DNA of 64,000 nucleotides from Neoarius graeffei. Its lineage: Eukaryota; Chordata; Actinopteri; Siluriformes; Ariidae. The notes beneath the pieces were generated by a model. The model did no database searches and was not told the origin of the DNA. It saw only the letters and a program-made list of their open reading frames with translations. Both the position numbers and the translations under genes were made by a program. The stretch spans positions 38,311,732 to 38,375,731 of the forward strand of contig NC_083587.1 in assembly GCF_027579695.1 (NCBI RefSeq). The letters run 5' to 3'. Shown here piece after piece: positions 12,732-12,823 of the stretch. Positions within the stretch are counted from its first letter, which is position 1, and every line of letters begins with the position of its first letter.

Positions 12732-12823
12732 GGTCTCCCATCCAAGTACTGACCAGGTCCAACCCTGCCTAGCTTCTGAGATCAGACAGGATCAGGCATT
12801 GTCAGAGAGTTGTGGCTGTAGGC
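12732..12823 (-). other. 5S rRNA-derived module in Gypsy-1 3' LTR
   Basis: Read on the minus strand from 12823, these 92 bases align without gaps to roughly nucleotides 1-92 of vertebrate 5S rRNA as I remember it, beginning GCCTAC and ending CAGTACTTGGATGGGAGACC; about fourteen positions differ by eye. The A-box, intermediate element and most of box C of the type 1 Pol III promoter fall inside. The 3' stem of 5S is missing. A TTTT (minus strand, at 12647-12644) about 85 nt downstream could act as a Pol III terminator. Confidence 0.88.

Follow-up and report, generated by a model that had tools for sequence, protein, structure and literature searches.

A coding LTR retrotransposon carries a large part of its host's 5S rRNA sequence in both of its long terminal repeats (LTRs), and the same module recurs across its family. 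The element lies within the window, by which is meant the whole stretch of 64,000 nucleotides of DNA that was analysed. All genome searches were done on the 2.34-Gb assembly that contains this window.

That 5S sequence was captured, and that its presence is family-wide, is close to certain. What the module does is a different question. The best explanation for the whole is that a chromovirus captured 5S and that the internal control region was then kept as a putative TFIIIA/TFIIIC site. We give this reading, which is drawn from sequence comparisons, very nearly an even chance of being right.

The element

The element has the following parts, all on the minus strand:

12580..18526, minus strand, Ty3/Gypsy chromovirus copy (Tf1/sushi type) with two LTRs, LTR ends TGTCATGG...CCTTGACA
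17740..18526, minus strand, 5' LTR, 787 bp, from LTR-LTR alignment
12580..13375, minus strand, 3' LTR, 796 bp, from LTR-LTR alignment
16474..17382, minus strand, open reading frame (ORF) with gag and aspartic protease domains, from domain search
15859..16392, minus strand, ORF with one part of the reverse transcriptase domain, from domain search
15178..15855, minus strand, ORF with the remaining reverse transcriptase and RNase H, from domain search
13465..15168, minus strand, ORF with integrase (H2C2, rve), SH3_Tf2-1 and chromodomain, from domain search
13379..13390, minus strand, G run directly 5' of the 3' LTR, likely the polypurine tract, from LTR alignment

The copy spans about 5.9 kb, and its flanks, GCATG and ACATA, are equal at three of five bases. 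The coding region is interrupted, with the domains spread over four separate ORFs. In the integrase ORF, rve, H2C2, SH3_Tf2-1 and Chromo each score above their Pfam cut-offs.

Relatives of this ORF were taken from the 120 listed of 2404 protein matches. Among these 120, the top two have 80% and 76% identity. The ones named by organism, which do not include these two, are all fish, for example Xyrichtys novacula with 70% identity. In IMG/VR and GTDB contigs, neither the exact module pattern nor the integrase ORF found relatives. The element is a Tf1/sushi-type chromovirus with coding sequence, and its host looks like a fish. The original prediction had also called it a chromovirus, and the domain search agrees, finding sequences from gag to chromodomain.

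The 5S module

The module and its possible stop signal are located as follows:

12732..12823, minus strand, 5S nt 1-92 in the 3' LTR (nt 1 at 12823), 76/92 positions matching host 5S, supported by shuffles, Rfam 34.7 bits
17883..17965, minus strand, 5S nt 10-92 in the 5' LTR (nt 10 at 17965), 72/83 positions matching host 5S, supported by shuffles, Rfam 48.6 bits
17802..17805, minus strand, TTTT past the end of the module in the 5' LTR, possible terminator for Pol III, from sequence

The host 5S reference is the reverse complement of a locus in the same genome (L002). The module of the 3' LTR aligns to it ungapped, and in the 5' LTR there is an 11-nt loss over the 5S start. Local alignment to 5S gives scores of 122 and 120, where the highest scores from 1000 dinucleotide shuffles each are 32 and 37. 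The Rfam 5S model scores the 5' LTR copy above its gathering score of 38 (E 4.6e-7) and the 3' LTR copy under it (E 0.0022). Shuffles and Rfam scores together rule out a chance resemblance to 5S.

Box C of 5S covers nt 80-97. Since the 5S match stops at nt 92, the box C of the module is without its last five bases; in one subfamily (L117, L118) the match extends to nt 94. What we take to be box A, the intermediate element (IE) and the box C part lie at 12774-12760, 12757-12752 and 12744-12732 in the 3' LTR, and at 17925-17911, 17908-17903 and 17895-17883 in the 5' LTR. A TTTT begins 78 nt (5' LTR) and 85 nt (3' LTR) past nt 92. Of 80 LTR loci of the family as cut, 24 show no TTTT 3' of nt 1; some deep-subfamily loci among the 80 were cut short.

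The original prediction described a sense-oriented 5S body at exactly these coordinates in both LTRs, with box A, IE and most of box C, and with TTTT about 85 nt downstream. Alignment to host 5S bears this out, at scores that no shuffle reached, so that the significance on which the claim depended is also there.

Of 16 hand-chosen family loci, 12 pass the Rfam 5S cut-off. This means that LTR copies may enter automated annotation as 5S genes.

The genome also holds 5S-like sequence in other contexts. Five loci (L113, L114, L115, L116 and L120) are dispersed copies of 5S nt 64/67-113, with IE and box C and without box A. Three of these (L113, L115, L116) have upstream sequence in common, while the likeness of L114 and L120 is confined to the 5S part and a few following bases. 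These copies apparently belong to another 5S-bearing repeat. A further locus, L119, is a near full-length 5S pseudogene (107/116) with tRNA-SINE-like sequence downstream.

Presence across the family

The genome has 1297 matches, with at most 2 mismatches, to a 24-base pattern that spans box C and the LTR junction. The reversed pattern has none in the same genome.

Two sets of LTRs were selected on sequence outside the module. The first (L009-L038) holds 30 of the 40 places scored with the upstream 547 bp, and all 30 carry the module; one of them, L009, is the window's own 5' LTR. Once second LTRs and duplicated segments are removed, 21 elements are left. The second set (L093-L112) represents a deep, divergent subfamily selected on the first 333 bp, from which 20 of 40 places were fetched. 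Here the module is in 19 of 19 readable LTRs. In the remaining one, L108 (contig C24, 49.8 Mb), most of the 5S module reads N, either an assembly gap or withheld sequence, and the locus was dropped from the set; the near-fixed sites discussed below are the same with or without it.

A third set (L039-L088) has an exact box C and junction match, and comes from the first 100 of the 1297 places, on contigs C1-C3. It is uninformative on the conservation of nt 74-98, because that is how it was chosen. Three of its loci (L054, L057 and L058, contig C1, around 89-93 Mb) have an identical 40-base flank before the LTR, and so count as one insertion that was multiplied with its surroundings and not as three.

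Subfamilies vary in the LTR segment 5' of the module. One subfamily has it nearly abutting LTR position 365, an arrangement that a deletion between two CAGCC motifs would explain.

A one-off capture is ruled out by the 30 of 30 and 19 of 19 LTRs and by the junction matches. Other family members do carry the module.

A second 5S piece and a probable route of capture

Directly upstream of the module there is more 5S-like sequence:

17966..18014, minus strand, second 5S-like piece (about nt 66-114), directly 5' of the module in the 5' LTR, from shuffles
12826..12874, minus strand, counterpart of this piece (about nt 66-114) in the 3' LTR, located through LTR-LTR alignment

The score of this piece is reached by 8 of 1000 shuffles for the window copy, by 1 of 1000 for L086 and by 0 of 1000 for L015 and L054. 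The second piece thus appears weak in the window copy and clearer in relatives. The order of 5S in the LTR is [5S 66-114][5S 1-92], head-to-tail with no spacer.

Such an arrangement suggests capture by template jumping. The chromovirus would have acquired host 5S rRNA sequence before the subfamilies split, and would since have kept it in the R region of its LTR. A reverse transcriptase may have copied one 5S RNA up to its 5' end, and may then have jumped to the 3' end of another 5S RNA, and from there to the element RNA. The complementary ends of 5S would offer matching bases for the jump. Reverse transcription at the RNA level is, we infer, the simplest route. The alternative is that a duplication with deletions at the DNA level produced the same order.

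Likely promoter and self-priming layout

The signals expected of a Pol II-driven, self-primed element can be placed around the module:

18379..18385, minus strand, TATTTAA, likely Pol II TATA box, LTR position 142, from sequence
18345..18354, minus strand, likely R start GTCAGATCGT, LTR position 173, complement of bases after the LTR
17728..17737, minus strand, likely self-primer binding site, complementary to 18354-18345
17782..17787, minus strand, ATTAAA, possible poly(A) signal, LTR position 740, from sequence

The bases that follow the LTR complement the LTR itself. The R-start complement begins 31 nt after TATTTAA, and an exact self-complement as long as its 10 nt turns up in 13 of 2000 shuffles. 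A self-complement of at least 10 nt is present in 14 of the 80 loci, which are an unsorted mix of 5', 3' and solo LTRs; three of the 14 are copies of one duplicated segment. This is how self-primed Tf1/sushi elements are laid out.

Given its place at about LTR 553-644, the module falls inside R, within the presumed Pol II transcript. The genomic RNA would be made by Pol II from the upstream TATA box and would prime itself. A Pol III RNA that starts at 5S nt 1 would be without the self-primer, which means that the module would be no replication promoter of the kind reported for Cassandra.

A second self-priming chromovirus-like element lies at 26086-31386 on the minus strand, with LTRs at about 26086-26563 and 30907-31386. 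These LTRs are near-identical, and the element has a 5-bp flanking repeat, TTCAC. Its self-primer has an 11-nt match at the same 31-nt distance as in the first element. In each LTR a consensus A box TGGCCTAGTGG is followed after 31 nt by a B box GGTTCGAATCC, the two boxes spanning 30976-30924 and 26154-26102. This is a tRNA-type Pol III promoter pair, and 0 of 20000 shuffles contain such a pair. Pol III control regions may thus recur in chromovirus LTRs of this kind. The element was also considered as a relative with an empty LTR site, an idea that was rejected because its LTR aligns with that of the first element no better than shuffles do (score 42, null mean 46).

Conservation of the module

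The original prediction held that the boxes should be better conserved than the rest of the LTR. In this simple form it fails: no part of the LTR varies more among recent copies than nt 1-79, also when CpG sites are excluded. What stands is a narrower result from comparison between deep subfamilies, in which nt 50-92 are conserved better than nt 1-49.

The two LTRs of one element are expected to be identical at insertion. Over 21 LTR pairs, non-CpG divergence is 55/1265 (4.3%) in nt 1-64 versus 191/11845 (1.6%) outside the module (p=2e-9). Within an element, nt 1-64 therefore differ about 2.7 times more than the rest, CpG sites excluded. At CpG-type sites, the counts are 38/69 and 113/543. The pairs include the window's own, and also L015/L021, whose members lie 6.8 kb from each other and perhaps do not form a simple pair. 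Gene conversion, mistakes in copying or a locally biased mutation process are possible sources of the excess in nt 1-64.

Diversity over 27 LTRs gives a similar picture. At non-CpG sites it is 0.046-0.075 in nt 1-79, 0.028 in nt 80-92 and 0 in the next 13 positions; further downstream it is 0.034-0.035, and upstream 0.011-0.020, in a set that was selected on its upstream part.

At 5S nt 46-52 of the family LTRs, GAAGCT and GCTGCT alternate, with CCCTGCT once, before AAGCAGG. This series of variants completes an inverted repeat, and it recurs within LTR pairs and in the separate 5S pseudogene L119. Such a recurrent change in box A may contribute to the variability of nt 1-79.

The deep subfamily differs from host 5S by near-fixed non-CpG changes at 7/39 sites in nt 1-49 and at 0/41 in nt 50-92 (p=0.005). 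The seven changes are not seven clean events, since three adjoin a small deletion common to many deep-subfamily copies. Across 54 elements, in part chosen through box C, near-fixed changes number 6/39 and 1/41 (p=0.054); these 54 are the 80 loci minus 26 second LTRs or likely duplicates.

When the two sets chosen without regard to box C are compared with each other (21 against 19 elements), conservation is higher in nt 50-92 than in nt 1-49 (p=0.003). Against flanking LTR, nt 50-92 are not clearly better kept in the same elements (rank test, p=0.10). When the 21 are compared with the 19, mostly different columns are 2/41 in nt 50-92 and 18/83 in flanking LTR (p=0.019). Of six subfamily comparisons, two put nt 50-72 above background at p<0.05, and three do so for nt 1-49. 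All in all, selection on the internal control region has moderate rather than strong support.

Possible functions

The likeliest function is that the control region is kept as a putative TFIIIA/TFIIIC site, acting through a short RNA or through LTR accessibility; we put this slightly below an even chance. Such a site would give a short RNA of about 175 nt, or would help to keep the LTR accessible. Use of the module by TFIIIA and Pol III is plausible. A passage of PMC12409998 states that TFIIIA binding is stronger at IE and box C than at box A, and this, together with the better kept nt 50-92, supports the reading. The same paper has it that sites bound by TFIIIC can be insulators. Counted against the reading are the box C that is cut at nt 92, the 24 of 80 loci without TTTT, the variability of nt 1-79, the p=0.10 of nt 50-92 against flanking LTR, and the showing of nt 50-72 in only two of six subfamily comparisons.

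A more specific form of the idea is a dual-promoter lineage, in which the genomic RNA comes from Pol II while a selected Pol III control region in R recruits TFIIIA/TFIIIC. That recruitment would give a short RNA, an open LTR or a barrier to silencing. We regard this fuller version as rather doubtful.

Ranking close behind the TFIIIA/TFIIIC site is a module that does nothing at all: an ancestor picked up 5S by accident, and every copying of the LTR has since taken it along. This has a sizeable chance of being correct, though clearly below even. The module is after all the most variable LTR part in recent copies, the comparison of nt 50-92 with flanking LTR reaches only p=0.10, 24 of the 80 loci, as cut, have no stop run, and the Pol II and self-primer parts would suffice for replication. 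It is harder to see on this account why the module was retained in every one of the 30 and 19 LTRs not selected on it, why near-fixed changes avoid nt 50-92, and why that stretch is kept better than nt 1-49.

The module may also descend from a SINE with a 5S head, like SINE3, that inserted into the LTR and lost its body. Such an origin has been proposed in print for Cassandra and Ajax (PMC10886601, in excerpt), and this genome does have a 5S pseudogene followed by tRNA-SINE-like sequence (L119). In the loci inspected, a limited test, nt 92-94 are however followed by LTR sequence and no SINE body, and in the one locus tested (L117) there is no flanking direct repeat of at least 6 bases around the block. 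A simple SINE head would also not give the [66-114][1-92] order. We consider a SINE origin unlikely.

A role for the RNA itself is more improbable still. 5S RNA is bound by TFIIIA and by ribosomal protein L5, and the 5S-like part of R might bind either of them for export or packaging, as the module is within the presumed transcript. Folding gives a structured-RNA role no support in the one copy used, the stretch from the window's 5' LTR, which folds no better than shuffles (z = -0.10). Moreover nt 1-49, which make up half of the 5S fold, are poorly kept. Finally, a chance resemblance or one-off capture has practically nothing left to it, given the shuffle and Rfam significance and the 1297 genome matches.

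Relation to known elements

LTR elements with a Pol III promoter include TRIMp3. For 5S, the plant element Cassandra is described in excerpts from PMC10853983 and PMC10886601 as a short non-coding TRIM with a 5S promoter in its LTR, from which it is transcribed. Like the chromovirus, it has box A, IE and box C derived from 5S within the LTR, and a passage of PMC10853983 has these boxes conserved beside variable stretches there as well. The chromovirus differs in having gag-pol-chromodomain sequences where Cassandra is short and non-coding, in the TATA box and self-primer 5' of its module, and in its head-to-tail 5S pieces.

Ajax comes from two nemerteans. In the relevant part of PMC10886601, it is a non-coding TRIM of 421-434 bp with a 5S promoter in its LTR and a tRNA-Leu primer site. 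Both are animal LTR elements with a partial 5S that covers box A, IE and box C, but the element described here has about 5.9 kb, coding domains and a self-priming layout. The original prediction knew of no described animal Ty3/Gypsy example. Ajax (PMC10886601, in excerpt), an animal element with a 5S promoter in its LTR, calls for a correction here, although it is short and non-coding. The author of Ajax argues, in a passage of PMC10886601, that coding partners must use Pol II promoters and that a long shared LTR stretch is unlikely. A 2026 meeting report (PMC12859917, in excerpt) terms Helenus and Ajax non-autonomous.

The Tf1/sushi (V-clade) chromoviruses are self-priming according to part of PMC6317226, and the same source allows the element to be likened to them in its integrase with chromodomain, its SH3_Tf2-1, its self-priming layout and its fish relatives. 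It differs in the 5S module of its LTR, none having been found described for this group in the openly licensed literature. The element is thus a Tf1/sushi chromovirus with a Cassandra-like LTR part, and not a member of Cassandra or Ajax.

SINE3, in a passage of PMC10886601, is likewise a retroelement with a 5S internal promoter. It is a short non-LTR element however, and the module here sits in an LTR with no SINE body seen. Other 5S-related work, seen in excerpt, names the 5S control elements (PMC3123226) and describes the Dada transposons of fish, some of which are located in 5S genes (PMC8869645).

No coding LTR retrotransposon with a 5S module was found in the openly licensed PubMed Central literature, covered mostly through titles and the starts of abstracts. 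The published cases found are short non-coding elements, beside which a coding chromovirus with 5S in its LTR would be new. The head-to-tail order of the 5S pieces is a sequence trace of a possible capture route for such modules. A high-copy coding family with a 5S control region beside a TATA box also qualifies the view that LTR elements with a Pol III promoter are short and non-coding, and it offers a testable case of TFIIIA or Pol III occupancy of an LTR that would be driven by Pol II.
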